A stretch of DNA of 64,000 nucleotides from Luteibaculum oceani. GTDB lineage: Bacteria; Bacteroidota; Bacteroidia; Flavobacteriales_D; Luteibaculaceae. The stretch is from contig NZ_VORB01000002.1 in the NCBI RefSeq assembly GCF_007995015.1, positions 1 to 64,000 on the forward strand. Direction: 5' to 3'. The notes below the pieces were generated by a model. It worked only from the letters and a program-made list of their open reading frames with translations, searched no databases and was not told where the DNA came from. This document shows positions 4,441 to 44,902 of this stretch, one piece after another. The translations under genes and the position numbers were made by a program. Each line of letters begins with the position of its first letter. The first letter of the stretch is position 1.

Positions 4441-4510
4441 CGCAAAAGGGCAAAGCCTTAATTGTTACCAGCAATAATCCAACCAACCTCTACCCGCCAG
4501 CCAATTGAAA

Positions 4511-7500
4511 ATGAAGACATTAACTAGTAACCAAAAAGCCATTTGGTTTGATCAACTTGTTCATTACAATTCCTCATTATATAACCTCGGCGGGTATGTG
4601 CGCATAGCCGGCGATTTAAATTTGAATCTGCTTGAAAAGGCAATTTCGGAAACCATTGCTTCTGCGGATATTTTCCAACAATCCATTCAACTTGTGGAGG
4701 GAGAGCCTCAATTTGGTTCGGAAATAGATTCAAGTGCTTTTCAGGTTCATGATTTACGAGGAACGCACAAAACGGAATCTGAGTTAAAAGCACAATTAAA
4801 AAACGAGCATAAAATCCCGTTAAATTGGAACGAGGGTGAATTGTTTTCTTTTGGCTTGTTTATCCTTTCCGATGACCTCAGCTATTGGCATATAAAAGTG
4901 CATCATGTGCTTATGGATGGTTGGGCTGTTTCGGTGCTGGTAAAAAAGGCCAGTGAAAATTACAACCAACTTTTATTAAAGGGAACCCTTTCGAGTCCGC
5001 TTCCCCTATTTGAGGCGGCCGTTCGAGAGGATCTGGAATATGTAGAGAGCGATGAGTACGAAAACGATAAAAGGTATTGGCTAAAGCAATTTGAGACGCT
5101 ACCCAGTAGTGTTAAATTTCCAGAGCCCACGCCTGCTGCACCAGAAATTGAAGGAAGTTTTAGAAAATCATTTTCTCTGTCATGGAAATCCTATAGTGCG
5201 CTCAACGAATTGGCTAGAGCGCATAACCAAAGTACTTTTCATCTTTTTCTTGCGGCTCTATACGCCTACTTTTCAAAGTCCTATCAAATCGATGATTTAT
5301 GTATGGGTACGCCGATACTGAATCGGCCAAGTAAAGCTTTTAAAAATACGGTTGGTCTATTTACCGGGATAAGCCCCCTTAGAATTCAAGGACCTAAACA
5401 CCTAAGCATTTCGGAAATAGGGCAAAACCTTCGCAAGCAACTTCGTCAGAATTTCCGTCATCAACGATTTCCTTTAAGCCATTTGGTGCAGGAACTCAAG
5501 AAGACTTATCCCAAGACAAACCGGTTATTTGACGCGGTGTTGTCCTTTGAAAAGCACGACTATCAGGTTCGGTTTGGAGCTGCAACAACACAACAAGAGG
5601 CCCTTCCACATGGGGATGAGCAAACTCCACTGGCATTATATGTTCGTGAATATGGCGCTGGTGAGCCGGTTACTATCGACTTGGATTTTAGGGGCGAAAT
5701 ATGGGATGATTTCCATTCCAGTCAGTTTGTGAATCAATTCCAGAGCGTGCTTGCGCGTATGGATCAATTGATTGAACAACCGATATCCGAGCTAAACTTG
5801 TTGACGCCTGACGATCTCGATCAACAATTAAAGGAATGGAATTATGCCGATAATGCACTGGGCAAGACTGTAGTAGAAATGTTTTCTAATGCGGTTGATC
5901 AATTTCCAAATCAATTAGCCGTAGCAGATGGGGAGGAAGAAATTTCCTACGAAGTGCTGGATAAAAGAAGCAATCAATTATCGCATTTACTGGCTGCTAA
6001 TCACATTTCAAAAGGGGATATTGTAGGGATTAGAACCGATAGAAAGGTTCACACCATAATTTCAATTTTAGCCATTCTAAAGGCGGGTGGTGCCTATTTG
6101 CCCATAGATTCTAATTACCCTGTTGAACGACAAAGGTATATGGTTGAAGATGCCCAAATTAAAAGCTTGATTACAGCGGGTGATGAGCAGGTGGATTTGG
6201 GTGTACCCGCTTTGAAAATCCAAGATGAAGTACTGGATAGTTATCCTACTACGGCGTTAAATTTAACTATAAACCCTTCCGATTCTGCCTACTTAATATA
6301 CACTTCGGGATCAACCGGGCAACCCAAGGGTGTTGTTGTAACGCACCGAGGAACGGTGAATCAAAGTTTGGAGCAAGTCAAGGCCTTCGAGGTAAGTCCA
6401 TCAGATCGCTGCATGCTTTTTTCCTCTTTGTCCTTTGATTCCTCTGTTGCGGAGATCTTCATGGCCTTATTTTCTGGGTCTAGTCTGCATATTTGTCCAG
6501 AAGATACCAGGAAAAACCCATCGGATTTTGAAGCCTTTTTAGCACAAGAGCGCATCAGTTACCTAACAGTAACGCCTTCGTTTTTAAGCTTACTGCGTCC
6601 AGAAGCTTTTAAGGGAGTTCGTGCGCTATTAACAGGAGGAGAGGCCGTTAAACGCAAGGATATAAGACGCATTGCACAATATTGTAGGCATTTTAATGTG
6701 TATGGGCCAACGGAAAACTCAGTTACCTCTACTTTTTACGAATTCGACGAGCGGATTCCAACCGGTATAAATATGCCCATTGGAAAGCCGGTGCCCAATA
6801 CCCAAGTTTATATACTAGATGCAGATTTAAGCCTGCTGCCGATAGGAAGTGTTGGTGAAATATATTTGGGAGGAGCCCAGTTGTCTAAGGGGTACATACA
6901 CCGCCCTGAGATTACAGCCGAACGTTTTATTGCCTCGCCCTTTGCCAAGGGAGAAAAACTGTACAAAACAGGGGATCTTGGTAAATTCTTGCCCGATGGA
7001 AATATTGTTTACCTGGGAAGAACAGATAATCAGATAAAGCTTCGTGGATTTAGGATTGAAATAGGGGAGATTGAAAATGGACTGATAGAGCACCCCGAAA
7101 TAAGCAACGCAGGGGTGCTTTTAAAAACCGATCATTCTGGGGAGGGCTACCTCCTTGCTTTCTATGTTTCTAATAAGGAACTCAGCGAAACTGAATTAAA
7201 AGAGCATTTGGGGGCCTTCCTACCCGAATTTATGGTACCTAGCTTTTTTCATCGGCTGGAAAAAATGCCTTTATCGGTAAATGGTAAGGTGGACCGGGAT
7301 GTACTGCATAAAATTGAGTATAGAAAATTATCGAATCCGAAGGAGTGTCAAAATTTAGAAACGGATTTTGAATTTTGGATTGCTGAAAAGTGGAAAACAC
7401 TTCTTGGAGTTGAAATAGTAGGAAAAGAATCAAATTTTTTCCAATTAGGTGGACACAGTCTAAAAGCAGCTAAGTTTATTGGTCTTTTAGAAAAGGAACA

Positions 7501-10500
7501 AGGTATCAAAGTGCCTCTAGCGGTACTTTTCGAGCATCCACAATTAGGCTCCTTAGCACAAACCCTGGAAAATGCAGCTCCTGTACTTCAGAAGAACACT
7601 CCAAAAAATTTAGGTGCAATTAAAACCATAGCCCTTACGCCTAGTCAAAAAAATATTTGGTTGGCAGAGCAGCTAAATGAAGGAGCAGCTGCTTTTAATA
7701 TTCCGGTTGGGATAGTCATTAAAGGCGATTTAGATACCCATCTTTTTCAGCAGAGTTTAAATAAGCTGGTTCAAAAACACGAGGTTCTTCGTGCTTATTT
7801 TATAGAGGCAGACGGAGAGCTTGAACAAGGATTTAGTGAAAACGTAGAAGTTGCGGTTAACCTTCATAATGATGAGGAACTATCCGCCCTGGTAAAGCAG
7901 TACATTCACTATAAATTCGATTTAACCCAGGCACCACTGTTAAAGGCAGGATTGGTGCCTCTTGCATCAGGGGAGCATTTATTTCTCTTATCCATTCATC
8001 ACCTTATTTCAGATGGCTGGTCGATGAATCTCTTTTTAGAGGATTTGGAATCTTTGTATAGGGGAGAAGAAGGGGTTAAGATAGAAGCAGGGTTTAAAGA
8101 ATATGCCTTTGCTCTTAATTCGGGAATTGAAAACAAGGCTAATGCACTGGCTTGGAAGTATTGGCAAAATCAGCTGAAGGGACTACGTCCATTGGAGCTG
8201 CCATACGATGGATCTCCCCATACAGCTAAATCTTTTGAGGGTAAGGTGCAACGTCTAACCCTGTCTGCAACCATCAATGAAAAGATAAAACGCATTTGCG
8301 AGCAACATCAGTTGAGTCGCTTTATGTTGGTTCAAGCCATTACAAAATTGATGCTACACAAGTTGTGTAAGTCCACCGATTTTGCATTGGGTGCACCGGT
8401 TTCTGGAAGGGAGACCGTGCAATACCACAACACCATGGGATTATTTGTACAAACGATTCCATTTAGGACTAAAATTGATGCAGAAGCTCCCGTGGGAGAC
8501 TTTTTACAGCAAATCAAAACTGAAACCCTGGATGCACTGAAGTATCAAGACTTTCCAGTGGACGCCCTTCCGGAAGCTAACCGTCCTGCTTTCAATGTTT
8601 TGGTGAGTATGGATGATCAAAACCTAAATAAATCCAGTTCCTGGTACCATCACGATCACCCTCTCATTAAAGCGTTAGAATTAGATTATGGAGTGAGTAA
8701 GTTCGATCTGTCGTTTTCTTTCCAAGAAGTGGCGGGGGAGTTACAAACCCATTTGATCTACAACACCCATTTGTTTGAGGACCAAACGGCTAGGTTGATG
8801 CTCAAATATTGGGAGAATGTGTTGCTGGAAGTGCTTAGTAAGGATGCTTTTGAATGCACCATTTTGGACTTAAAGTTAGCGGATGGTTCTGAAGCAGAAA
8901 CCCTAAAATACCTAGGGCTACCAGAAACCCAATACGAAAGGGCTTTTCCTTTAACTGCGGTGCAACGCGATATGTATCTAACCTCGGAGTTGGCTCCCAA
9001 TGAGGGGGCGTTGAGGACTTTGGGGTACCTATTTGTAAGAGAAAAAATAGATGCTCCAATTTGGCAACAAGCACTTGAAGATCTTACAAAACAAGAAGCC
9101 ATTTTGAGGACGACTACGGTCGAAAAAAATGGAAAGGTTTATCAAGCCGTTCGGAGGTCCAAGAAAACCAACTTCAAATACATAGATTTCTCGTCTCAGA
9201 ACCTTTTGGAAAGTGATGTGAAGTCATTGGTGATCGAATACTGTGAAATATCACAAGATGTTCATCAGGAACTTGTAAATCATTGGCTTTTTAAGCTAAA
9301 TGACACCTGTTATGTGTCGGTCTTGAGTGCACATCACATGCTTTTAGACGGGAGTTCTTTCTCTTATTTTTATGAATTACTAGATGGTTTTTACACTGCG
9401 CGAGCGAAACAGCAGGAGCATGTGAAAAACCCCTATACCAGTCCGTTTTACCGTTTCGCCAACGATATAGAGCATCGTTTCGATCGCCCTCAAATGATTA
9501 ATTTTTGGGAGCAGCATCTAAAAGGGGTAGAACCGCTCAATTACCGAGGGGTAGTACAAAGGAACGCAGAGTATAGAACGGATCATATTAATATGAGCTC
9601 TGAGTTATCCGATGGAGTTAAAAAGTTTTGCAAGGAAAATAGAATCCGCCCCGACCTTTATTTCAAAGGATTAGTCGCCCTTATTGTAAGGGGAGTTTGT
9701 GCCACCGATACCGACTTTTGTTTGCGCGAAAATCTTTTTGGTCGTTCCAAAAGTAATCTGAACACGCTAGGGTGTTTTATGTCTACCAAACCCTTGCGTA
9801 TTTATCAAGATGAATGTGACTCCGATAAAGAGTTTGCAGATTTTTGTAAGGCTATTAAGAAGGAGGGGATCCGCACAAAAGACGCTGGAAACATATCGGT
9901 TTCGGCACAAAATAAAATTATTGGAAATGAACCGCTATCCTTTTACTTCAATTTCCAAAAATTCTTAGAGCCCGATTCCGCATTAAAGATGAGTTATCTC
10001 TACCAGGTATTTCATGTTATGAAAGAGCAGGTAGAGATACGCGTTGGAGAGAATAATACAGGTTTCGACTTTAGATTGGATTACGACCTAAGCGTGTTCA
10101 ATGGTAGGGATTTCATGCAGCGTTTGATATACCTATCGGAGCAGTTGGTGAATGGGGTTACCACTATTGGCGCCTTAAAATGGACTCTTCCCGAGGAGGA
10201 ACGTGAATTGGATTTATGGGCTCAAAATCCAGCCGATTTTAATTTTCAAAGCATTACCAGCCTTTACCATAGGAATCTAGATTCGGTAAAGAACAGCAGG
10301 GCTTTGGTGTACAAAGATCAAGCTTGGACCTATGGTGAATTGGAGAAGCTAAGTAATCAGCTGGCGCATTATTTAGCAAATAGTGGAGTGAACAAAGGAG
10401 ACCGTATAGCCCTAATTTGCGATCGCGGTCCCTGGATGTTAACGGGCGTTTTGGCTTGTTTAAAATCGGGTGCAGTATACATACCGATAGCCGCAGATCT

Positions 10501-13500
10501 TCCAGAGCAAAGAATAGCATACATTTTAGAAGATGCGCAACCAAAATTGGTACTGAGTGATGTTGAAGATTGGAGAAATACGTTTGAAGCAAGCTCCTTC
10601 GATGTGGTCTTGCAAGAAAAAGAGGACTTTGTTCCCGTAGCTTTAAACCCAGAGGATAGCGCCTATATTATATACACTTCTGGAACTACTGGTGTGCCAA
10701 AAGGGGTGGAGGTTCAACACAAAGCCTTATCTAACATTTCTCAGTCTTGGACACAGACTTACGGACTGGATAAAGAAAGGCCTAAATTATTGCAGTTGGC
10801 CAGTTTTTCCTTTGATGTTTGCACGGGAGATTTTGTACGAAGCTTGGCAAATGGAGGGAATTTAATCATTTGTCCTTCTGATATTCGCCTCGATCCAGCA
10901 TCTATGTATCAATTGTTGGAGGAACACGAAATTAATGTGTTTGAGGGAACTCCTGGGTTAGTGGAACCCTTAATGCGATATGTATCCGAAAACGGAAAGT
11001 CGCTTAGCTATTTAAAACTTCTTATCATTGGCTCTGATACCCTGCAGATAGCAACCTATAAATGGTTAAGAGCAGAATTTTCGAAGGATATCAGAATTAT
11101 TAATAGCTACGGGGTAACAGAAGCATGTATCGATTCTGCGTGTTTTGAGGACGAAATCCCAGAAAAGCTGTACTGCAAAACTACCCCCATTGGAAAACCT
11201 TTGCATAACTCCAAAATGTTGGTTTTGGATTATCGCAAACAAAAGGTTCCGGTGGGTATTCCGGGTACACTTTACATTGGTGGAACGGGCTTAGCAAAAG
11301 GATATGTGAACCAAGACCTTTTAACGCGCGAAAGGTTCGTTCAAATTAATGATGAAAAGTACTATGCCACGGGAGATCAAGTTAGGTGGCTTCCGAATGG
11401 GGATGTGGAATTTTTAGAAAGAACCGATAACCAAGTTAAGGTAAGAGGTTATCGCATTGAACTGGCCGAGATTGAGTATCAGCTTAATCGGATTTCGGAA
11501 ATCGAAAAAGCCATTGTTTCCGCTCCGAAATTAGACGGAGATAGACAATTGGTAGCCTATTTAAAAGCAGCTAAGGAAATAAAGCCACAAAGAATTAAGG
11601 AAGTTCTTTCTGCAATGCTTCCAGAGTACATGGTTCCCCAACACTTTATTTTTATTGAAACCTTCCCCTTAACTCCAAACGGTAAAATCGATTACCCTGC
11701 ATTACCCGGAATTGAACAGTCTGAGTTGTCTTCCACCTTTGTCGAACCGAGAAATGATCTCGAGGAGCAAATGTGCGCCATTTGGGCCAGTGTTTTAAAT
11801 AGAGAAAGGGTTGGAATTGCAGATAACTTTTTTGAGCTAGGTGGCCACTCGTTAAGGGCCACGGAATTGGTTTCCCGGATAAAAAAGGAGCTGAAGGTAA
11901 AGCTGCCTTTAAATAGAATCTTTAATGCTCCAAGGATTATTGATTTTGTGTTAGACTGGCCAGATAAATCAAAAAATGATTTGGGTCTGGCTAAGGCTCC
12001 AGTTCGGCGCTTTTACCCTTTGTCCAGTGCTCAATTGCGGACTTATTTGCTCCAGGCTATGGATCTTGAGGCAACTACCTACAACATGCCTGCTGGTTTT
12101 GAATTGAAAGGCAAGTTGGATCTGGAAAAACTGAAACAGGCATTCTTTCAACTCAGTGTATTGCACGAGGTACTGCGAACTTCTTTTCACTTGGAGAACG
12201 GGTTGCCGGTGCAGCAAGTGCACGATCAAATTGAAATACAAATAGATCGTTCTTACGAGAAAAATGCTCAGTTAAACGAAGTTCTTCAAACCTTTGTTCA
12301 ACCCTTCGATTTAAGTAAGGCCCCTCTGTTCCGTTTGCATGTGAATAGTTTCACAGCAACCCATCATTTATTAATGATGGATATACACCATATTATCTCG
12401 GATGGGGTTACAGTTCAGGTTCTGGTTAGAGACTTGATGAACTTGTACGCTGGGATTTCGAGAAGCAAACCCACTTTTCAATACAAGGATTTCGCTTGGT
12501 TCCAACATCAAGAGGATAATGCACAACAACAGGTTCTGAGAAACTATTGGTTGAGTCAATTTTCGGATGGAGTTCCAACTCTGGATTTTCCAAGCTCCTT
12601 CCCTCGACCAAAATCTCTTTCGGGCAAGGGAAAAAGACATACAGAAATTTGGGACGAAGCAGTATTACAGAGGCTTAGAAGTTTCTCAAAAAGCCATAAT
12701 TGTACGCTCCAGCAAGTACTTAATGCGGCTTGGATAGTTCTAGTACATAGATACACTGGTAAGTCGGATTTGGTGATTGGACAACCGGTTTCTGGAAGAA
12801 CACTTTCCGAAACGCAAGATATGGCTGGTATGTTTGTAAATACTCTCGCGCACCGATATCAAATAAATCCAAATGACGACTTTTTATCTTTTATAAAAAG
12901 AGCTTCAGACCGACAACTTGAGGGACTTGACCACCAAGATTTTCCTTTCGAAAAACTGGTGGATGCATTAAAACTTCAACACGATAGAAGTCGACATCCC
13001 ATTTTTGATGTGGCATTCTCCTATTTAAAACCAGATATACAGGAGTTTAAGTTGTCTGGTTTAGACATTAAGCAACTTAAGCTGGAACACCGGTCTGCCA
13101 AGTTCGATCTCCTGGCAGAGGTGGTCGAAATGAACAACCACTTACAGTTAGAACTGGAATACTCTACGGACCTGTTTGATGCTGAATTTATGGAGCAAGT
13201 AGCCCGTGATTACCAATCGTTGTTATGCGAATTAATAGCGGCTCCTGAACAGCAAGTTGGGACCATTCCTTTCCTTAACCAAGAGGAAATTGAAAGGATA
13301 ATAAATGCGACAGACTATACGAACGTAGCTTTCGATCACGGGGAGCTAATTCACACGTATTTTGAAAAACAGGTAGCGCAATATCCAGACAAAACAGCAC
13401 TAGTTTACCAAGGAGAAACATTATCGTACCGCGACTTAAACAAACGCGCAGAGCTAATTGCAAGTCATTTGCCCCAGGGAGGCGAAAGAATAGCCTTGTT

Positions 13501-16500
13501 ATTTGATAAGGGCTTTGAGATGATTGCTTCTATTTTGGCCGTTTTAAAATCTGGAAACTGCTACGTTCCTATAGATCCAAACTACCCTGAAGAAAGAATA
13601 AACTTTACCATAAAAGACTCCGAAGCAAGCCTATTGTTGTGCGATCATGCGATACTTGGAAATTATGGAACAAAACTTATCGCTACCTCTGCGTTAAAAG
13701 AGCGCGGAAACAATCCCCTAGATTACGCTATTTCTTCTGATTCTGAAGCCTATGTTATATATACTTCAGGCTCTACGGGTAAGCCGAAAGGGGTTCCTAT
13801 AACCCATCAAAATGTAAGTCGCTTGTTTTTTAACCAAGAACAATTGTTCGATTTCTCAGAAAAAGATGTTTGGACATTGTTTCACTCCTATTGTTTCGAT
13901 TTTAGTGTATGGGAAATGTATGGGGCGCTGTTGTTTGGGGGGAAGCTAATTATTGTAGACAAGGCACTTGCCCAAGATTCAGGAGCTTTTGCTTCGGTGG
14001 TGGAAAAGGAAAAGGTTAGCGTTCTTAATCAAACCCCGAGTGCTTTCTTCAATTTTGCGGATTTTGCGATTGCCAAAAAATTAAATCTATCCCATCTTAA
14101 GCAGGTTATTTTTGGAGGAGAAGCCTTAGCGGTAAAGCAATTAAAGCCCTGGTTCAATCAATTCCCCGATGTGCAGCTCATTAATATGTATGGTATTACG
14201 GAAACTACAGTTCACGTTACCTACAAAGAGATTGGGAAAGCAGAAATTGAGGCGGGATGGAGTAATATAGGAAAGCCCATTCCTACGCTGGGTATGCTAA
14301 TTTTAGATAATCAGCTCAACATCGTTCCAGAAGGTGTTGTGGGTGAAATGTGCATTTATGGAGCGGGCCTTTCTAAAGGGTATCTAAATCGACCGAAACT
14401 AACAAAAGAGAAATTTACGCATATAACTGCTCCTGTCAGCAGGTATATATACCGCTCTGGAGATTTGGCACGCCTAAAAAAGAATGGTGAGGTAGAATAT
14501 ATCGGTAGAGCAGACAGCCAAGTAAAAATAAGAGGATACCGCATAGAAATAGGAGAGATTAACAATGTTCTTTTGAACCTAGATCAAATAAAGCAATCTA
14601 CCGTTCTGGCCCACAAAGATGCTAGGGGAGAATCGTATTTGGCAGCTTATTATATCGGGGAAATATCAGAACAAGAAGTTAAACGTTCACTTTCAGCTGC
14701 CCTGCCTGCACACATGATTCCCTCTTGGTTTGTTCCAATGGATGTTTTTCCACTTACCAAAAACGGTAAACTTGATGTAAAAGCGTTTCCGATTCCTCAT
14801 CTAGATCGGTTAACAACCGAAAACATAGTCCTGCCGCATACGCCAACAGAAAAGCAGTTGCAATCTATTTGGTCGGAAGTACTGGGGATTGAGGAATTTG
14901 GTGCGGATCAGGGCTTTTTTGAGGTAGGTGGGCACTCGCTTGCAGCGGCTAAAGTGGTTGGAAAAATACACGAGTCCTTTGGAAAGCAAATTGAACTGTC
15001 GTTTTTATTTGCTAATCCCAGTATACAAAGGCTAGCTCAGAAATTAGACGAGCAGCAGTCAGCTAAGGCAAAACGGATACCTAAAGTTGCAAAATCGGAG
15101 TTTTACCCATGTTCCTCTGCCGAGCAACGGATATTTGTAATTCACCAAATGCATACTGAGGATACGACCTACAATATTCCTGGAGTATTTGAGGTTGATG
15201 GTGCGTTGAACCTGGAAAGGCTTCAAAAAGCCGTAAACGATCTGGTAGAAAGGCATGATGTATTACGGACCAACTTTTTCATGCAAAACAATGCGGTTCA
15301 CCGAACAGTCCACGATCAACGGGAGGTACCCATATCGGTAAAATCGAGTGAACGCGCACTTTCTGAAGAAATTGGTGAATTTGTACGACCATTTGATTTG
15401 GAAAAAGAGGCTTTATTCCGAATACAAATTACCTACATAGGCCAGCATATTTATTTGCTTTTCGATATACATCACATCATCTGTGATGGCATATCCATGG
15501 AAATTCTTATTTCCGAGTTAAACGATTTATATCAAGGAACTCGGTTATCGCCTCTTGATATCGGATACAAGGATTTTGCCAGTTGGCAAAAACAATGGGT
15601 TAAAGGAGCCGATTATCAGAAGGAGAAAGCATATTGGCTTGAGCAGTTCGAGGAGGAAGTTCCCGTATTAAACCTTCCAACGGACTTTGTAAGGCCAGCG
15701 GTGAAATCAAACGAGGGAGCTCGTTATCACTTTCAAATCCCAGCGGAGTTGGGAAATAAAATTCGCACGCTTGCAAAGGAGGTGGAAGCAAGCCCATTTA
15801 CGGTGTTTTTAACGGGACTTAAACTCCTTCTGGCAAAGTATAGCGGTCAAACAGATCTCATAATTGGAACACCGGTTTCGGGTAGGACACACCCTGAATT
15901 GGATGCGATTATGGGGATGATGGTGAATACCCTCGCCATTCGAAGTCAGCTCAACTGGAATACCCCCTTAATTAAAGCCTTGGAGGAGGTACGCTTATCC
16001 AGCTATAACGCCTTGTCGAACCAAAACTATCCTTTCGAAGATCTTTTGGATGCATTGAATGTGCACAGGGATATGAGTCGAAATCCCTTGTTCGATGTGA
16101 TGTTTTCTTACCAGCATGATGGGACCGAAACCATTCGTTTTTCGGAATCTAATTTTACTCCGATAAACTTCGAGCATCCCATTTCCAAAATGGATTTAAC
16201 CCTCGACGTTGCCGGAAAGGATAATGGTGGATTTAACTTAAGCATTGAATATGCTACTAAGCTCTTTAAAAAGAGTACAATAGAGCGGTTATCGCAACAC
16301 TTTACATATTTGCTTGAGCAATTTGTAATTACGCCAAACCAGGCGCTAGCTAGCTTTGAGTTGCCTACAAATGTTGAGAAACGGCAGTTGATCTACGGGT
16401 TTAATAATACCCTAATGGATTTCAGAAGAAGCGTGTGCATTGGTGGTATGTTCGAGGAAAGTGCCTTAAAATATCCCAACGATTATGCCGTGGTTGATGA

Positions 16501-19180
16501 CCGTAACTCCTGGACCTATGCCCAACTTGCAGCGTATACCGGAAGAATTGCAGGAAAGCTGCAAAGCCTTGGTTTAAAGAAAAATGCTAAGGTGGCAATG
16601 ATGATGGAGCGGTCTGCTGCCTTAATTGCGGTGCAAATGGGAATTCTTAGGGCAGGCTATACCTACGTTTATTTAGATCCAAAATTACCCGAAGACCGCA
16701 TTGCTTACATTTTAAGTGACTGTAATGCTGGTTTGTTGGTTAGTCCCACTCCAGTTGCAGGGGTTGAGTGTGAACAACTTTCCTTTGATGCGCTCAATGC
16801 TCCTTGTGATGTAACCATTAAAAGCAACTCATCGCAAGATGATTTAGCCTACATCATATACACCTCAGGAACTACCGGAATGCCAAAAGGTGTTGCGGTG
16901 GAGCACAAATCCGTTTTAAATCTGGCGCATTGGTTCTCCAACGCGTATAATCTAAGGCAGCACCGAAATCTTATTCAAATGACGAACATGAGTTTCGATG
17001 TTGCGGTTGAGGAAACCTTGGTGCCCTTGATGTATGGAGCCTGTGTCCACATTGCGTCTAGGGAGGTTGTATTGGATAAAAAAGCGTTTTATGAGTTTGT
17101 GGAAAGCCGACAAATTGATATCGCTCAATTTGTACCCTCTACCCTGCAAAAGTTGGTCGTAGAGAACGAAAAAATGTCCTCTTTAAAGATTTTAATTTGC
17201 GGAGGCGAGCGCTTAAACAAGGAATTAAAAACGCAAGTATTAAATAAGGGCTACGAGTTGTATAACCACTATGGCCCCACAGAGACCACAGTAGATTCTC
17301 TAGTTTGGAAGTGCTCTGGACACAACGCAAGGTTAGTGCATAGAAGGGTAGGGGCAAATGCGCTTAAAAATCCTAACAAGATTGCAGTAGCCACTAAGAA
17401 CGATCAAATATCCTACAGCGAGCTTCAATTTAAATCCGAGCAATTAGCTGCCTTTTTACAACAAAATGGGGTGGGCAAAGGAGATGTGGTAGCAATTTCG
17501 TTGGAGCGAAGCGTAGACTTGGTTGTAAGTATCTTAGGAGTAATGATTGCAGGTGGAGCCTATTTACCTATTGATGCGACCGCACCAAAGGGCAGAGCCG
17601 AATACATGCTTAAAGACAGCAAAGCCAAGTTTATCATCGCTAGACCTGGTATTCACGAAAACCTAGAAGTAAGAACAAGCCGATTAAATATAGAAGATCC
17701 TAAACTTTTTAATCCGGAACAGCCTTTCTCCCCGGTTGGAATTACAACAGAGGATTTGGCCTATGTTATCTACACTTCGGGTTCTACAGGAAATCCTAAA
17801 GGCGTACAAATAGAGCATGCTTCGTTAAACAATTTCTTGCAAACCACCATGGCACAATATGCCAATGTCTTTAGTGATGAAGATGTTTGTTTGAGTTTAA
17901 CTAACATTTCCTTCGATGTTAGTGTCTGCGAGATTTTTATTTCCCTAGTGCATGGCGCAAAATTGTTCATGTTGGATAGGTTGGATATTTATGACATAAA
18001 CCTTTTAGCTCATACTATAATTGAGCAGGAGGTGAGTTTTGCTTACATCCCCCCCTCATTATTGCAAGATGTACATGCCAAACTGTTACCTCACAAGGGG
18101 AATCTAAAGTTTAATAAGTTGATGGTAGGGGTAGAACCTATTCGAGATCATGTGCTTCAATCCTTTAAGGCACTCCATCCGAATATGGTGGTTATGAATA
18201 GCTATGGACCAACTGAATCTACCATTTATTGTACCTCTTTAGATGTTCCCGTGCAGGAACCTAAGGGAGACATTGTTCCTATTGGTCGTCCAATATTCAA
18301 TACCCAGATCTACATCTTAAACGAGTTTGATCAGTTACAACCGGTGGGGGTACCTGGCGAGTTATGTATTTCTGGAGAAGGATTGGCCAGAGGTTATTTA
18401 AATCAGCCAGAATTAACCGCTGAGAAATTTACGATGAACCCGATTACTAAAAACGAGCGAATGTACCGAACAGGCGATATCGCGCGGTGGCTTCCGGACG
18501 GAACTATTGAGTTTGTGGGGAGAAAGGATTTTCAGGTAAAAATTCGCGGATTTAGAATAGAACCTGGCGAAATTGAGAACCAAATGCTGGCCATTCCAAA
18601 GATTAAACAAGTTTTGGTATTGGCCTTAGACGATAAGGAGGAGAAATATCTTTGTGCGTATTATACGGCAAAAGAGGAGCTGAAACAGGAAGAAATAAAG
18701 GCTCATTTATCGGCCTCACTTCCCGATTACATGATCCCAGAGCACTTTGTGGCTTTGGATTATTTTCCATTAACCAAAAACGAGAAGGTAGATCGCAAGG
18801 CATTACCAGTACCAGAGCGAAACCTAATGCATAGTGAGGAGGATTACGTAGCACCAAATACGGATACCGAAAAACTAATTCAATCTTGGTGGGAAGAAAC
18901 CTTAGAAACCAAGCCAATTGGTATTAACATGAATTTCTTCGAACTAGGAGGAAACTCGCTTAAAATCATTGGACTTTTTGGTAAAATGAAAGAGCAGTTC
19001 CCAAATCAAATTGCGGTAAACGACCTATTCGATAAACCCACAATTCAGCTTCAAGCAGCACATATCGATGCCCTAAAGCAGAAGAATGCGGAGTCAACAA
19101 AAGAGCAAAACGGTAACTCCGAGGAGCAAGAGCAACAATTACAATCCCAAAACAAGCGTCTGAGACGTGTAGAATTTTAA
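4511..19180 (+). CDS. Four-module non-ribosomal peptide synthetase (NRPS1)
   Basis: A 4889-aa assembly-line enzyme. Order: C1 (HHVLMDG at 131)-A1-T1 (Ser983); C2 (HHLISDG at 1163)-C3 (HHMLLDG at 1608)-A2-T2 (Ser2447); C4 (HHIISDG near 2626)-A3-T3 (Ser3476); C5 (HHIICDG at 3654)-truncated A4-A5-T4 (Ser4816); then a charged, Gln/Glu-rich 40-residue tail that may dock to the next protein. Specificity residues read by eye: A1 DSATLGVVTK (unassigned), A2 DVGEIGSIDK (canonical ornithine), A3 DFWNIGMVHK (canonical threonine), A4 DVEQIGHVD (incomplete domain), A5 DVCYMGSIYK (unassigned). It opens with a C domain and no loading A-T, so the first residue is probably N-acylated or receives a chain in trans. 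ATG 4511 is preferred to the TTG at 4505. It is the first gene of the operon, 8 nt before the next. No E or MT domain is present. Confidence 0.97.
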   Translation: MKTLTSNQKAIWFDQLVHYNSSLYNLGGYVRIAGDLNLNLLEKAISETIASADIFQQSIQLVEGEPQFGSEIDSSAFQVHDLRGTHKTESELKAQLKNEHKIPLNWNEGELFSFGLFILSDDLSYWHIKVHHVLMDGWAVSVLVKKASENYNQLLLKGTLSSPLPLFEAAVREDLEYVESDEYENDKRYWLKQFETLPSSVKFPEPTPAAPEIEGSFRKSFSLSWKSYSALNELARAHNQSTFHLFLAALYAYFSKSYQIDDLCMGTPILNRPSKAFKNTVGLFTGISPLRIQGPKHLSISEIGQNLRKQLRQNFRHQRFPLSHLVQELKKTYPKTNRLFDAVLSFEKHDYQVRFGAATTQQEALPHGDEQTPLALYVREYGAGEPVTIDLDFRGEIWDDFHSSQFVNQFQSVLARMDQLIEQPISELNLLTPDDLDQQLKEWNYADNALGKTVVEMFSNAVDQFPNQLAVADGEEEISYEVLDKRSNQLSHLLAANHISKGDIVGIRTDRKVHTIISILAILKAGGAYLPIDSNYPVERQRYMVEDAQIKSLITAGDEQVDLGVPALKIQDEVLDSYPTTALNLTINPSDSAYLIYTSGSTGQPKGVVVTHRGTVNQSLEQVKAFEVSPSDRCMLFSSLSFDSSVAEIFMALFSGSSLHICPEDTRKNPSDFEAFLAQERISYLTVTPSFLSLLRPEAFKGVRALLTGGEAVKRKDIRRIAQYCRHFNVYGPTENSVTSTFYEFDERIPTGINMPIGKPVPNTQVYILDADLSLLPIGSVGEIYLGGAQLSKGYIHRPEITAERFIASPFAKGEKLYKTGDLGKFLPDGNIVYLGRTDNQIKLRGFRIEIGEIENGLIEHPEISNAGVLLKTDHSGEGYLLAFYVSNKELSETELKEHLGAFLPEFMVPSFFHRLEKMPLSVNGKVDRDVLHKIEYRKLSNPKECQNLETDFEFWIAEKWKTLLGVEIVGKESNFFQLGGHSLKAAKFIGLLEKEQGIKVPLAVLFEHPQLGSLAQTLENAAPVLQKNTPKNLGAIKTIALTPSQKNIWLAEQLNEGAAAFNIPVGIVIKGDLDTHLFQQSLNKLVQKHEVLRAYFIEADGELEQGFSENVEVAVNLHNDEELSALVKQYIHYKFDLTQAPLLKAGLVPLASGEHLFLLSIHHLISDGWSMNLFLEDLESLYRGEEGVKIEAGFKEYAFALNSGIENKANALAWKYWQNQLKGLRPLELPYDGSPHTAKSFEGKVQRLTLSATINEKIKRICEQHQLSRFMLVQAITKLMLHKLCKSTDFALGAPVSGRETVQYHNTMGLFVQTIPFRTKIDAEAPVGDFLQQIKTETLDALKYQDFPVDALPEANRPAFNVLVSMDDQNLNKSSSWYHHDHPLIKALELDYGVSKFDLSFSFQEVAGELQTHLIYNTHLFEDQTARLMLKYWENVLLEVLSKDAFECTILDLKLADGSEAETLKYLGLPETQYERAFPLTAVQRDMYLTSELAPNEGALRTLGYLFVREKIDAPIWQQALEDLTKQEAILRTTTVEKNGKVYQAVRRSKKTNFKYIDFSSQNLLESDVKSLVIEYCEISQDVHQELVNHWLFKLNDTCYVSVLSAHHMLLDGSSFSYFYELLDGFYTARAKQQEHVKNPYTSPFYRFANDIEHRFDRPQMINFWEQHLKGVEPLNYRGVVQRNAEYRTDHINMSSELSDGVKKFCKENRIRPDLYFKGLVALIVRGVCATDTDFCLRENLFGRSKSNLNTLGCFMSTKPLRIYQDECDSDKEFADFCKAIKKEGIRTKDAGNISVSAQNKIIGNEPLSFYFNFQKFLEPDSALKMSYLYQVFHVMKEQVEIRVGENNTGFDFRLDYDLSVFNGRDFMQRLIYLSEQLVNGVTTIGALKWTLPEEERELDLWAQNPADFNFQSITSLYHRNLDSVKNSRALVYKDQAWTYGELEKLSNQLAHYLANSGVNKGDRIALICDRGPWMLTGVLACLKSGAVYIPIAADLPEQRIAYILEDAQPKLVLSDVEDWRNTFEASSFDVVLQEKEDFVPVALNPEDSAYIIYTSGTTGVPKGVEVQHKALSNISQSWTQTYGLDKERPKLLQLASFSFDVCTGDFVRSLANGGNLIICPSDIRLDPASMYQLLEEHEINVFEGTPGLVEPLMRYVSENGKSLSYLKLLIIGSDTLQIATYKWLRAEFSKDIRIINSYGVTEACIDSACFEDEIPEKLYCKTTPIGKPLHNSKMLVLDYRKQKVPVGIPGTLYIGGTGLAKGYVNQDLLTRERFVQINDEKYYATGDQVRWLPNGDVEFLERTDNQVKVRGYRIELAEIEYQLNRISEIEKAIVSAPKLDGDRQLVAYLKAAKEIKPQRIKEVLSAMLPEYMVPQHFIFIETFPLTPNGKIDYPALPGIEQSELSSTFVEPRNDLEEQMCAIWASVLNRERVGIADNFFELGGHSLRATELVSRIKKELKVKLPLNRIFNAPRIIDFVLDWPDKSKNDLGLAKAPVRRFYPLSSAQLRTYLLQAMDLEATTYNMPAGFELKGKLDLEKLKQAFFQLSVLHEVLRTSFHLENGLPVQQVHDQIEIQIDRSYEKNAQLNEVLQTFVQPFDLSKAPLFRLHVNSFTATHHLLMMDIHHIISDGVTVQVLVRDLMNLYAGISRSKPTFQYKDFAWFQHQEDNAQQQVLRNYWLSQFSDGVPTLDFPSSFPRPKSLSGKGKRHTEIWDEAVLQRLRSFSKSHNCTLQQVLNAAWIVLVHRYTGKSDLVIGQPVSGRTLSETQDMAGMFVNTLAHRYQINPNDDFLSFIKRASDRQLEGLDHQDFPFEKLVDALKLQHDRSRHPIFDVAFSYLKPDIQEFKLSGLDIKQLKLEHRSAKFDLLAEVVEMNNHLQLELEYSTDLFDAEFMEQVARDYQSLLCELIAAPEQQVGTIPFLNQEEIERIINATDYTNVAFDHGELIHTYFEKQVAQYPDKTALVYQGETLSYRDLNKRAELIASHLPQGGERIALLFDKGFEMIASILAVLKSGNCYVPIDPNYPEERINFTIKDSEASLLLCDHAILGNYGTKLIATSALKERGNNPLDYAISSDSEAYVIYTSGSTGKPKGVPITHQNVSRLFFNQEQLFDFSEKDVWTLFHSYCFDFSVWEMYGALLFGGKLIIVDKALAQDSGAFASVVEKEKVSVLNQTPSAFFNFADFAIAKKLNLSHLKQVIFGGEALAVKQLKPWFNQFPDVQLINMYGITETTVHVTYKEIGKAEIEAGWSNIGKPIPTLGMLILDNQLNIVPEGVVGEMCIYGAGLSKGYLNRPKLTKEKFTHITAPVSRYIYRSGDLARLKKNGEVEYIGRADSQVKIRGYRIEIGEINNVLLNLDQIKQSTVLAHKDARGESYLAAYYIGEISEQEVKRSLSAALPAHMIPSWFVPMDVFPLTKNGKLDVKAFPIPHLDRLTTENIVLPHTPTEKQLQSIWSEVLGIEEFGADQGFFEVGGHSLAAAKVVGKIHESFGKQIELSFLFANPSIQRLAQKLDEQQSAKAKRIPKVAKSEFYPCSSAEQRIFVIHQMHTEDTTYNIPGVFEVDGALNLERLQKAVNDLVERHDVLRTNFFMQNNAVHRTVHDQREVPISVKSSERALSEEIGEFVRPFDLEKEALFRIQITYIGQHIYLLFDIHHIICDGISMEILISELNDLYQGTRLSPLDIGYKDFASWQKQWVKGADYQKEKAYWLEQFEEEVPVLNLPTDFVRPAVKSNEGARYHFQIPAELGNKIRTLAKEVEASPFTVFLTGLKLLLAKYSGQTDLIIGTPVSGRTHPELDAIMGMMVNTLAIRSQLNWNTPLIKALEEVRLSSYNALSNQNYPFEDLLDALNVHRDMSRNPLFDVMFSYQHDGTETIRFSESNFTPINFEHPISKMDLTLDVAGKDNGGFNLSIEYATKLFKKSTIERLSQHFTYLLEQFVITPNQALASFELPTNVEKRQLIYGFNNTLMDFRRSVCIGGMFEESALKYPNDYAVVDDRNSWTYAQLAAYTGRIAGKLQSLGLKKNAKVAMMMERSAALIAVQMGILRAGYTYVYLDPKLPEDRIAYILSDCNAGLLVSPTPVAGVECEQLSFDALNAPCDVTIKSNSSQDDLAYIIYTSGTTGMPKGVAVEHKSVLNLAHWFSNAYNLRQHRNLIQMTNMSFDVAVEETLVPLMYGACVHIASREVVLDKKAFYEFVESRQIDIAQFVPSTLQKLVVENEKMSSLKILICGGERLNKELKTQVLNKGYELYNHYGPTETTVDSLVWKCSGHNARLVHRRVGANALKNPNKIAVATKNDQISYSELQFKSEQLAAFLQQNGVGKGDVVAISLERSVDLVVSILGVMIAGGAYLPIDATAPKGRAEYMLKDSKAKFIIARPGIHENLEVRTSRLNIEDPKLFNPEQPFSPVGITTEDLAYVIYTSGSTGNPKGVQIEHASLNNFLQTTMAQYANVFSDEDVCLSLTNISFDVSVCEIFISLVHGAKLFMLDRLDIYDINLLAHTIIEQEVSFAYIPPSLLQDVHAKLLPHKGNLKFNKLMVGVEPIRDHVLQSFKALHPNMVVMNSYGPTESTIYCTSLDVPVQEPKGDIVPIGRPIFNTQIYILNEFDQLQPVGVPGELCISGEGLARGYLNQPELTAEKFTMNPITKNERMYRTGDIARWLPDGTIEFVGRKDFQVKIRGFRIEPGEIENQMLAIPKIKQVLVLALDDKEEKYLCAYYTAKEELKQEEIKAHLSASLPDYMIPEHFVALDYFPLTKNEKVDRKALPVPERNLMHSEEDYVAPNTDTEKLIQSWWEETLETKPIGINMNFFELGGNSLKIIGLFGKMKEQFPNQIAVNDLFDKPTIQLQAAHIDALKQKNAESTKEQNGNSEEQEQQLQSQNKRLRRVEF
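8935..10215 (+). other. Second of two tandem condensation-type domains (C3) in NRPS1 module 2
   Basis: After a complete C2 domain the protein does not pass to an A domain but to a second C-fold of about 420 residues. It starts at PLTAVQRDMYL and keeps the catalytic HHMLLDG. It is clearly more divergent than the other C domains (for example LRENLFGRSKSNLNTLGCFM where others have the GxPxxGR region). It has no E-domain signature (DSVSW). It lies directly before the ornithine-type A2. Confidence 0.8.
16432..17320 (+). other. Truncated adenylation domain (A4) fused to a complete A5
   Basis: This 295-residue segment carries adenylation core motifs up to A5: YIIYTSGTTGMPKG, FDVAVEE and NHYGPTETTVD. 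It then breaks off at LVWKC, and at about residue 4274 the start of a new, complete A domain follows (LVHRRVGANALKNPNKIAV). Motifs A6-A10, the carrier domain and a C domain are all missing between the two. The frame is continuous, so this is a fusion and not a frameshift. Confidence 0.88.
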
Positions 19181-19188
19181 AATATATC

Positions 19189-20028
19189 ATGAAAAAACTA
19201 GCAGTTATAGGAGCTGGGGTAATGGGACAGGGTGTCTCTTACCAATTTGCAAAATTTGGATATCAGGTAACACTTATCGATCTGTCTGATGAAGTGCTGG
19301 AGGATGCAAAAAAGAAAATTAAAAATATCGAGCGCTTGGATAAACTGTTGCATAAGTCGAAAAGCACTTATGTAGCGCTTGATCAAATTACATGTACTAC
19401 GGATTTATCGTCCATTTCATCTGCCGATTTTATCATTGAAAACGTTACCGAAAACATAAAAATTAAAGAAACCCTTTATCAAGAGATCGCCAAGTACATC
19501 TCGAATGATGCCCTCCTTGCGGTTAATACATCGGCAGTTTCCATAACTCGTTTGGCTTCTTTTCTTCCTCAACCAAAGAATATAATGGGTATACACTTTA
19601 TGAACCCCGTGCATTTAAAACCAACTGTTGAGGTTATCAGAGGTTTCCATACAACCGAGGAAACGATTAACACAACCCAAACCCTGCTTCAATCTGTTGA
19701 AATGGAGGGGGTAGTGGTAAACGATTATCCAGGGTTTATTTCCAATCGAGTTTTAATGCTAACGGTAAATGAGGCCATATTCTCCCTGCAAGATGGCGTG
19801 GCAGATGCAAAATCGATAGATAAAATATTTAAGCAGTGCTTTGGCCATACCATGGGGCCATTAGAAACGGCCGATCTTATCGGTTTAGACACCATCCTTT
19901 ACACACTAGATGTGCTAGTAGAAAGCTATCAGGATACAAAATTTAGACCCGCACCACTTTTAAAAAAAATGGTAGACGCCGGTTTACATGGCCGCAAGAG
20001 CGGAGAAGGATTTTTTAAATACAATTAG
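19189..20028 (+). CDS. 3-hydroxyacyl-CoA dehydrogenase-like enzyme (FkbK type)
   Basis: This 279-aa NAD-dependent dehydrogenase has an N-terminal Rossmann motif, GAGVMGQG (residue 8 on), an acidic residue ending beta2 (TLIDLS), the catalytic His136 in GIHFMNPVH, and the typical C-terminal helical domain (FISNRVLMLTVNEA). In the known methoxymalonyl and hydroxymalonyl pathways (FkbK of FK520, ZmaG of zwittermicin) such an enzyme oxidises glyceryl-ACP to the 2-hydroxy-3-oxo form. It sits 8 nt after NRPS1 and next to the ACP, acyl-CoA dehydrogenase and FkbH-like genes, which supports that role over beta-oxidation. The assignment to hydroxymalonyl-ACP is inference from context; the enzyme class is certain. 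Confidence 0.92.
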   Translation: MKKLAVIGAGVMGQGVSYQFAKFGYQVTLIDLSDEVLEDAKKKIKNIERLDKLLHKSKSTYVALDQITCTTDLSSISSADFIIENVTENIKIKETLYQEIAKYISNDALLAVNTSAVSITRLASFLPQPKNIMGIHFMNPVHLKPTVEVIRGFHTTEETINTTQTLLQSVEMEGVVVNDYPGFISNRVLMLTVNEAIFSLQDGVADAKSIDKIFKQCFGHTMGPLETADLIGLDTILYTLDVLVESYQDTKFRPAPLLKKMVDAGLHGRKSGEGFFKYN

Positions 20029-20053
20029 GCAACCCCACAAATTAATTACAACT

Positions 20054-20305
20054 ATGTCAACACCAATTATTGATGTTCAACAAACGGTAAAAACCTTCCT
20101 ACAGAAAAGAATAGGAGAAGATATTTCATTCGAAGTTACAGACGATATTTTCGAGTTGGGTCTGGTAAACTCATTGTTCGCTTTAGAGCTTGTGGTTTTT
20201 TTGGAGAATACTTTTGGTTTTACCGTGGAAAACGAGGATCTCGACTTGAACAATTTTAGTTCTGTGGCCAACATTGAAAAATTCGTTGTTCGCAAAAAAG
20301 CATAA
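20054..20305 (+). CDS. Stand-alone acyl carrier protein (FkbJ type)
   Basis: This 83-aa carrier protein has its phosphopantetheine Ser40 in LGLVNSLFALELV. The GLVNSLFA wording is typical of the discrete ACPs that carry glyceryl-, hydroxymalonyl- or methoxymalonyl units (FkbJ and ZmaD types), rather than the DSL of fatty-acid ACPs. The upstream in-frame ATG at 19988 would overlap the previous gene and add a sequence unlike any ACP, so ATG 20054 is chosen. It should be loaded by the FkbH-like protein and activated by the PPTase at the operon end. It lies 25 nt after the dehydrogenase and 5 nt before the acyl-CoA dehydrogenase. Confidence 0.93.
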   Translation: MSTPIIDVQQTVKTFLQKRIGEDISFEVTDDIFELGLVNSLFALELVVFLENTFGFTVENEDLDLNNFSSVANIEKFVVRKKA

Positions 20306-20310
20306 TTCCT

Positions 20311-21462
20311 ATGTCATTTCAATTAACGGATGAACAGGAGCATTTTCGCAAATCGGTCCAGGACTTTGTGAAGTCGGAAATTCTGCCCTATGCAGAGCAG
20401 TGGGATAGACAAGAGAGTACTCCTCGTGAAATCGTAAAAAAGCTGAGCGATAAAGGCTTGCTTTGTCCTACCATTCCCAAAAAGTACGGGGGATTAGAAT
20501 TAGATCAGGTGCGCTATGGTATTCTTCATGAGGAAATAGGCAGAGGCTGTTCGTCGGTTCGTTCTTTACTTACGGTACATTCTTCTCTTACGGCCGAAAC
20601 CATTTCAAGATGGGGGAATGAGGCCCAAAAGCAGCAATGGTTACCTAAATTGTGTAAGGGAGAAAAGGTGGCTGCCTTTGGCTTATCGGAACCCACAACG
20701 GGTAGCGATGCACAAAACGTGCAAACTACATATACCCAGGTTGATGGCGGTTATGTATTAAACGGCCACAAAAAGTGGATTACGTTCTCTCAAATGGCCG
20801 ATTTATTTGTAATCGTTGCTAAGGGAGACCAAGGGGTTTGTGCCTTTCTAGTGGAGAGTGTTACGGAAGGATGCACGGTAAATCCGTTAACCGGAATGCT
20901 GGGAACCAAGGCTTCAATGCTTGGAGAAATCATACTTGAGGATTGCTTTGTACCCGAAGCCCATCTGCTGGGACGTCCAGGTTTTGGTTTTGCCCAAATT
21001 GTAAATACCGCATTGGATAACGGTAGATTTAGTGTGGCCTGTGGTTCGCTTGGAATTGCTCGTGCCTGTTTAGAAGATAGCGTTGCCTATGCTAAAGAGC
21101 GTCAACAATTTGGATCTCCTATAAAGGATCACCAGTTGATTAAACAGAAAATTACAAATATGATAACCGAGGTAAAGGCTGCCCGATTATTGTGTTATAA
21201 TGCGGCACACCTAAGAGCTACAAAAAACCCCGATTCTTTTATTCAGACCACCGTAGCGAAATATTATACCACACAAGCTGCGAACAGAATTGCCAGCGAG
21301 GCGGTGCAGCTTCATGGAGCAGCTGGATGCCACGATAGCAGACCCATTCAGCGTTATTTCCGAGATGCTAAGATCATGGAGATTATCGAAGGCTCCTCGG
21401 AAATTCAACAAATTTTAATTGCCAATCAAGGACTAGCTAGTTTGTCCTCTATACTTTCCTAA
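20311..21462 (+). CDS. Acyl-CoA (acyl-ACP) dehydrogenase, FkbI type
   Basis: This 383-aa flavoprotein is of full acyl-CoA dehydrogenase length. The FAD-binding signature FGLSEPTTGSDA, the WITF segment, the C-terminal QLHGAAG and RDAKIMEIIEGSSEIQ with the catalytic-base Glu360 are all present. In the FkbI and ZmaE route this family oxidises the ACP-bound three-carbon unit to the malonyl level, in concert with the FkbK-type dehydrogenase. Its stop codon is followed directly by the ATG of the KASIII-like gene, with no intervening base, so translation is likely coupled. The specific substrate is inferred from neighbours. Confidence 0.92.
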   Translation: MSFQLTDEQEHFRKSVQDFVKSEILPYAEQWDRQESTPREIVKKLSDKGLLCPTIPKKYGGLELDQVRYGILHEEIGRGCSSVRSLLTVHSSLTAETISRWGNEAQKQQWLPKLCKGEKVAAFGLSEPTTGSDAQNVQTTYTQVDGGYVLNGHKKWITFSQMADLFVIVAKGDQGVCAFLVESVTEGCTVNPLTGMLGTKASMLGEIILEDCFVPEAHLLGRPGFGFAQIVNTALDNGRFSVACGSLGIARACLEDSVAYAKERQQFGSPIKDHQLIKQKITNMITEVKAARLLCYNAAHLRATKNPDSFIQTTVAKYYTTQAANRIASEAVQLHGAAGCHDSRPIQRYFRDAKIMEIIEGSSEIQQILIANQGLASLSSILS

Positions 21463-22431
21463 ATGATCGGAATAAAATCCATACAATCCTTTACACCAGG
21501 CACTCCAATTGCCGTTCATGAATCCAATGAGTTTAAAAACCTCAATGCTGTTGAGCGTGAATATTTCGAAACCGTTGGTATTGACACGGTTTACGATTCG
21601 GGAAACCTGCAAAGCTATGATTTGGCCAAAGGTGCTAGTGAACAACTCTTAGAACAAAACGGACTGGAGGGAAAAGATTTAGATTTTATCATCTACATCC
21701 AAAGCAGAACCCCAGAGCATTTTATTTCTTCCGAAGCAACGAGATTACAGCACGATCTTGGAGCAAATTCTGCCATGGCTTTTGCAATTTCTAATTTGGG
21801 TTGTGCCGATTCTTCTATGGCCATTAAGTTGGCTATGGACCTTTTAAAAGCCAATAAAAAGGCGAAAAACGTGCTCATTTGTTACGGTAACAAGTTGTAC
21901 TCTAATTATCGTTTTAGATATCCTGTTACGGTTATGGGGGATGGAGGAATTGCCGCGCTTATTGGAAGAACGGAGAACAACCAAATCCTAGACATTCAAA
22001 TGCAATCTAATGGTGCGTATTGGGATTTATTTAAAATGGAATATCGAGGTAAAAAGGATGAGGAGTTTAAGGAGACCTGCTCCAATTTGCGCAAATATGG
22101 ATTTGAGTTGGCGATAGAAAGTAAGAACAGGTTTCAGGAATTAAACCAAAAAGTTTTAGACCATAACGGTCTTACATCCTCTGAAATAGACCATTACATG
22201 CTTCAAAATATATCGAGCAGGGCCTATGAATATTACGAGCAAGCTTTCGATATAAAGCTCTCTCCCATTTGCCAGATGAACCTGAGCAAATATGGACATC
22301 TTGGATCTGGAGATGTGTTTCTGAATTTTAAAACTGGTGTGGATTCGGGGCTTTTTCAGGAAGGACAAAACGTATTAATTATGAATAATAGCCCCGCGGC
22401 TGCCTGGAGTACCGTACTCCTCGAAATTTAA
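21463..22431 (+). CDS. KASIII-like protein, candidate trans-acyltransferase
   Basis: This 322-aa thiolase-fold protein is of FabH length. The nucleophile Cys114 lies in NLGCADSS, at the same place as in FabH. The other two FabH active-site residues are not conserved: the HQAN motif is replaced by MLQNISS, and the Asn of YGNT is replaced by His in YGHLGSGD. Loss or swap of these residues is a feature of KASIII relatives that transfer acyl groups instead of condensing them (the CerJ/ChlB3 kind). In this operon the PKS lacks a working AT. The protein could therefore move hydroxymalonyl from its ACP to the PKS, or it could condense glyceryl-ACP as in tetronate pathways. The first is favoured because FkbI- and FkbK-type genes are present. 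The family call is firm; the role is inference. Confidence 0.88.
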   Translation: MIGIKSIQSFTPGTPIAVHESNEFKNLNAVEREYFETVGIDTVYDSGNLQSYDLAKGASEQLLEQNGLEGKDLDFIIYIQSRTPEHFISSEATRLQHDLGANSAMAFAISNLGCADSSMAIKLAMDLLKANKKAKNVLICYGNKLYSNYRFRYPVTVMGDGGIAALIGRTENNQILDIQMQSNGAYWDLFKMEYRGKKDEEFKETCSNLRKYGFELAIESKNRFQELNQKVLDHNGLTSSEIDHYMLQNISSRAYEYYEQAFDIKLSPICQMNLSKYGHLGSGDVFLNFKTGVDSGLFQEGQNVLIMNNSPAAAWSTVLLEI

Positions 22432-22441
22432 AATCGTGCAC

Positions 22442-44762: not shown

Positions 44763-44902
44763 TTTAATTCCATTTTAGGAATACTAAATATTTTCAATCA
44801 TCTGAATTTTATAAGGTTTCGATCCTTTTTTCTTTTATTCATAGACTGTTTAGTGATTTTTGTAATAAATGGAATATCTTGCCTCCTTTAAATTCAAATT
44901 CC

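Follow-up and report, generated by a model that had tools for sequence, protein, structure and literature searches.

A half adenylation domain fused in frame to a complete adenylation domain in a hybrid NRPS/PKS cluster

Two adenylation (A) domains in a row have been described in AulA, from the auriculamide pathway of Herpetosiphon, where the first one was judged inactive and its removal leaves adenylation by the second unchanged (PMC5238615). PyrG, of the pyridomycin pathway, is another NRPS with two consecutive A domains, as it is cited in that paper. Truncated A domains that do not adenylate, present in frame in a working NRPS, are reported for module 13 of the glidonin NRPS GdnB (PMC10587159) and for the dA domains of the fungal SidD and Nps6 (PMC10192304); in these, the C-terminal part is kept and the core, or its N-terminal ~290 residues, is absent. 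In addition, interrupted A domains carry an MT, Ox or KR domain at a8/a9 and sometimes at a2/a3, according to PMC11355689. Consecutive A domains of which the first is dispensable, as in AulA and PyrG, and partial A domains are therefore already known.

Here we analyze a window of 64 kb, the whole stretch of DNA under study, which holds a hybrid NRPS/PKS cluster. Its NRPS1 gene (4505..19180, + strand) has the order C-A-T-C-C-A-T-C-A-T-C-[half A]-A-T by ORF, Pfam and local A-domain profiles. We call the half domain A4h and the complete domain behind it domain A5, as distinct from motif A5. Like AulA and PyrG, NRPS1 has one carrier for two successive A domains, if the half is counted as one. However, the first A domain of AulA was lost through residue changes (Asp413 to Tyr, poor motifs), whereas that of NRPS1 is cut after motif A5 and its retained motifs are intact. 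A ketoreductase follows in AulA, while NRPS1 has none and domain A5 runs directly into T; the AulA/PyrG type has an alpha-keto-acid pocket without Asp at position 235, whereas the pockets of both A4h and the domain A5 core begin with FD; and the half A of NRPS1, unlike AulA, has a condensation domain in front. Compared with GdnB, SidD and Nps6, NRPS1 shows the opposite truncation, with the core kept, the C-terminal part lost and a complete A domain immediately next. With interrupted A domains it has in common that one frame places a second domain within or up against an A core, but its site is A5/A6, what comes second is an A core too and there is one A6-A10 set. In the literature covered, which takes in few subscription journals and a part of the papers that matched, we found no description of a core with motifs A1-A5 only fused to a complete A domain.

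The junction and the half domain in NRPS1

NRPS1 is a single frame, open throughout, of 4,891 aa. On its + strand the module in question starts with the condensation domain C5 (15095..16390; PF00668, 379 bits, profile 2-455/456), whose active motif HHIICDG lies at about 15470-15490. A4h follows at about 16421..17311 with motifs A1-A5 only; it matches PF00501 over positions 1-329 of 384 (229 bits, or 228.5 bits when scored over the common part) and the local A1-A5 profile with 271.7 bits, and by the latter it ends in ...NHYGPTETTVDSLVWK. Three residues, CSG (17312..17320), separate it from the A1-A5 core of domain A5 (about 17321..18244; local A1-A5 profile 282.6 bits, and alignment), whose first residues, HNARLVHRRV..., are the tail of a C-A linker. 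The A6-A10 part (18251..18814; local A6-A10 profile 253.5 bits, PF13193) carries YRTGD, GRKDFQVKIRGFRIE and NEKVDRKAL, and the thiolation domain (18890..19066; PF00550, 36.3 bits) has FFELGGNSL. Domain A5 is thus complete (PF00501 4-384/384 plus PF13193, then the PF00550 carrier), and C5, A5 and T all keep intact motifs.

Between A4h and the next core, Pfam and the local profiles gave no match to AMP-binding_C (PF13193), PP-binding or A6-A10. The gap of 3 residues compares with 727 and 730 aa for the other two core-to-core gaps in NRPS1, so that about 725 aa (2.2 kb) are missing. Judged from the domain order, the missing piece would be A6-A10, T, C and most of a linker; the downstream break spares just the final few C-A linker residues. 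These results bear out the architecture of the original prediction: a half A domain (with FDVAVEE and NHYGPTETTVD among its named motifs, all present) fused to a full A domain starting within about 20 residues, with A6-A10, T and C missing between them. The pocket code that it gave for A4h, DVEQIGHVD, is likewise correct by motif position; the mapping of code residues to GrsA 278, 299 and 301 is one that we assume.

The genome is a 42-contig assembly, and a collapse of two similar modules during assembly or binning could in principle yield such a joint. The two cores are about 30% identical to each other, and no near-identical stretch on which an assembler might collapse is therefore visible. 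Furthermore, the junction DNA occurs nowhere else in the 2.92-Mb assembly, even as a near copy (a 261-bp query matches elsewhere over 19 bp at best), the reading frame is unbroken, GC content stays level through the joint and an independent genome has the same type of junction (see below). An artefact is hence highly improbable, and the earlier concern over an assembly collapse is weakened by the uniqueness of the junction DNA. Recent duplication was also considered and rejected, since A4h shares 27-36% identity with the cluster's other A domains and is not a fresh copy.

A4h has the P-loop, the pocket and motifs A1-A5, and it is not decayed. Its Pfam score of 228.5 bits is the second among the eight A cores of the cluster (range 181.6-238.8), and it keeps 43 of 46 conserved columns, the same as domain A5, with the other six cores lower (33-40); the reference set for these columns was fetched mostly with A4h and A5 queries and leans towards both, while the Pfam score is unaffected. 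AlphaFold predicted A4h alone with a pLDDT of 89.2 and a pTM of 0.89, with its final strand complete (residues 293-298) and a disordered tail of five residues. Superposed on GrsA PheA (1amu_B) over 298 residues (Z 36.9, 2.2 A), the model spans GrsA 34-344, so that everything beyond GrsA residue ~340 is absent. The argument of the original prediction that A4h should be inactive is sound in this regard, as the domain ends at GrsA ~340, ahead of A6-A10. Without the end of the core that forms the beta-barrel, the A7 aspartate and the A10 lysine, A4h should not adenylate, judging from the family, and the absence of A6-A10 predicts that it is catalytically dead and dispensable. The absence of decay is unexpected for an old non-functional relic, and implies either that the event is recent or that the core is under selection or in use.

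Breaks just after motif A5 in other assembly lines

Among 65 consecutive pairs of full A cores in 74 stretches (1.25 Mb, window included), the gap between cores was 3 aa in NRPS1, 177 aa in the stretch L083 and at least 727 aa in the remaining 63. When the set was widened to 108 stretches (1.706 Mb with the window), motif A5 was reached by 282 A cores, of which 278 continue into A6-A10; two run straight into another A core (NRPS1 and L049) and two have a long insert before A6 (L053 and L137), rates that describe stretches chosen for holding A domains, mostly from the same phylum, and do not apply to all bacteria. Several further stretches were flagged by the order test and are not counted as scars. 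They have two A6-A10 pieces split near A8/A9 (L029, L030, L031, L033, L042 and L048, and likewise L108, L111, L112, L126 and L131), A2/A3 splits (L034, L078, L081, L086 and one ORF of L130) or splits between A4 and A5 (L039, L052, L158 and the other L130 ORF).

L049 (G172:C61), from the same class, has a C domain, a half A core ending just after motif A5 and a complete A-T. As in NRPS1, the half A ends right past A5 and a complete A-T comes next. L049 differs in a methyltransferase-like insert between A2 and A3 of the half core (named by eye from a SAM-binding-like motif), in eroded A3 and A5 motifs and in a full C-A linker between the cores, its downstream break lying at the linker start, unlike NRPS1. 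At the same site, L053 (G392:C23, 4678-6267) and L137 (G686:C33, 9710-11300) each have a PLP-dependent decarboxylase (PF00282, 153 and 129 bits, respectively) that splits an A domain between A5 and A6. These inserts are ~500 aa long and the A domain resumes at IPIG(K/R)P plus A6; in a search of 395 genomes of the phylum, one relative of the decarboxylase, of stand-alone size, passed E 1e-40. The break point right after A5 therefore recurs, and the NRPS1 scar is not the one-off that it was first taken for, given L049 as a further, independent case and the decarboxylases inserted at this site in L053 and L137. It is this recurrence that is worth following up.

Two other arrangements were seen in the survey. 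In L083 (G480:C85, ORF +5916, aa 2613-3658), a complete C-A linker and A domain lie inside another A domain at the A8/A9 site, with the outer A9-A10 and one carrier coming after. The stretches L028 and L035 (Mycetohabitans endofungorum B60, NZ_CP062169.1) carry a full A domain, then a second in-frame A6-A10 copy and then T, an arrangement that in its sequence reads as the mirror image of the NRPS1 scar; it may be a pseudogene or an error, the stretch being unannotated and its frame breaking further downstream.

NRPS engineers need to know where modules can be cut and joined. PMC7486941 describes a recombination hotspot that starts close to A5 and tests of boundaries at GrsA 322, 332 and 352; its own laboratory swaps with joints within the A domain did not work, and those made before it are reported there to have been inefficient at best. 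According to PMC8097286, exchanges of the A core dominate natural recombination, with the C-A linker and Asub usually retained, whereas NRPS1 instead lost Asub and most of one linker. The joint just after A5, which occurs in two assembly lines whose downstream ends differ and which decarboxylases have used as well, offers a concrete, testable fusion point and would show how an assembly line drops a residue while keeping frame.

Probable origin and working of the fused module

We consider it probable that the arrangement arose when a stretch was deleted in frame at a boundary where A domains naturally recombine, and that this gave a working C-[half A]-A-T module with one residue skipped. The ancestor would have had the module pair C5-A4-T4-C6-A5-T5, from which ~2.2 kb would have been lost in frame, starting just past motif A5 in A4 and stopping where the C-A linker ahead of domain A5 ends, leaving a remainder that acts as a single elongation module. 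In that module, C5 would still have its linker and still touch the A4 core, and A4h, whose core would fold without adenylating, would now be a spacer. The intact domain A5 would activate its amino acid and load the carrier behind it, and C5 would condense the upstream peptide onto the residue of A5, so that the product would be one residue shorter than the ancestral peptide. Since the C-A linker before A5 was lost, T is predicted to have to reach C5 across the extra core.

A deletion is the simplest reading because the missing length equals the normal spacing in NRPS1 and because the downstream break leaves just the end of a C-A linker. It is also supported by the open frame and by the motifs kept in C5, A5 and T. 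Further support comes from the modelled end of A4h, on a complete strand with a disordered tail, and from L049, which repeats the order of half A and then A with a different downstream break. Loss of modules and domains, also at non-canonical A-T-C boundaries, is described for cyanobacteria in PMC12184294. By analogy, a working fused module is consistent with AulA, where the inactive first A is dispensable (PMC5238615). The single in-frame deletion first proposed thus stands as the simplest account, and falls short of proof as the insertion of a core would give the same sequence.

Some observations count against the deletion. The ancestral order occurs in no relative among the genomes searched, and the relative keeping the missing A6-A10, T and C that the original prediction had looked to was not found among them. 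Close relatives of the cluster were absent from 60 relatives, from 399 genomes of the order (18 match at E 1e-30, own genome included; best non-self match 2.1e-46, 34% identity) and from 395 genomes of the phylum (three match at E 1e-45, own genome included). Genome contigs gave no close relative (five loci at 37-40% identity), nor did plasmids (every match below 60% identity), and none among the matches listed from 395 genomes of the class spans the junction. The undecayed state of A4h, in both Pfam rank and conserved columns, also counts against this reading. Furthermore, co-inheritance did not favour the A5 core over A4h as partner of the A6-A10 part (ranks 62/229 and 52/230, respectively, against a median own rank of 6/229 for the method; the ranks are from the double-centred version, the plain version being without power). 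Viewed as an A domain interrupted at A5/A6, the locus has this single A6-A10 part, which the test assigns to neither core; though it works in general, it does not tell the two histories apart for this domain.

The same test, which prefers neither core, is in line with another origin, namely that a C-A-T module of the usual kind took up a second A1-A5 core at its A5/A6 site, for instance through a failed subdomain swap. The two cores would then share one A6-A10 part, or lid, and it could be A4h that was there first and the A5 core that came in. That the A5/A6 site accepts inserts in nature, as with the PLP-decarboxylases of L053 and L137, that L083 has a complete linker plus A at A8/A9 of another A domain and that core swaps dominate natural recombination (PMC8097286) all point in this direction. 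However, an insertion needs one homologous and one non-homologous joint where a deletion needs a single joint, the C-A linker tail HNARLVHRRV ahead of the second core fits a former module start, and the A5 core, being contiguous with A6-A10, is the more likely to fold with it. We thus regard an insertion as unlikely. A broader reading takes the A5/A6 boundary (GrsA ~338-345) as a natural joint for both cuts (NRPS1, L049) and inserts (L053, L137), and NRPS1 as a two-core, one-lid unit in which selection maintains the first core for a structural or a specificity role; this seems to us decidedly improbable.

Alternatively, A4h could have retained a job, as a platform that holds C5 or by binding a substrate, nucleotide or partner and so modulating A5. 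The lack of decay in A4h and its confident stand-alone fold in AlphaFold would agree with this, and the half core of L049, which carries a methyltransferase (by eye) despite its eroded A3-A5, suggests that a half A can persist as a carrier of something else. On the other hand, the first A domain of AulA can be removed and the second keeps its activity (PMC5238615), and a recent event accounts equally well for the lack of decay, which makes a retained job quite unlikely.

Other features of the cluster and window

Upstream in NRPS1, two consecutive condensation domains (7622-10105; 272.7 and 135.8 bits) lie between T1 and A2, both with HHxxxDG (HHLISDG and HHMLLDG). From its domain order, NRPS1 seems to lack an A-T pair here as well. 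The NRPS2/PKS protein has ~270 aa between KS and ACP without any Pfam match (24919-25749), which by eye resemble an eroded acyltransferase. NRPS2 already ends with a full condensation domain, and NRPS3 opens (27332-28090) with ~230 aa that bear a weak resemblance to the C-terminal lobe of such a domain (15.6 bits, which does not reach the Pfam cut-off).

Just after NRPS1, a cassette at 19189-23503 codes for a 3-hydroxyacyl-CoA dehydrogenase, a small ACP-like ORF (by eye), an acyl-CoA dehydrogenase, a KAS III-like protein and FkbH (TIGR01686, 247 bits; cut-off 146.65), which we take to be a gene set for hydroxy- or methoxymalonyl-ACP. Lastly, proteins at 1465-2052 and 44879-47596 have sorting tails of the Por secretion system, pointing to Bacteroidota.
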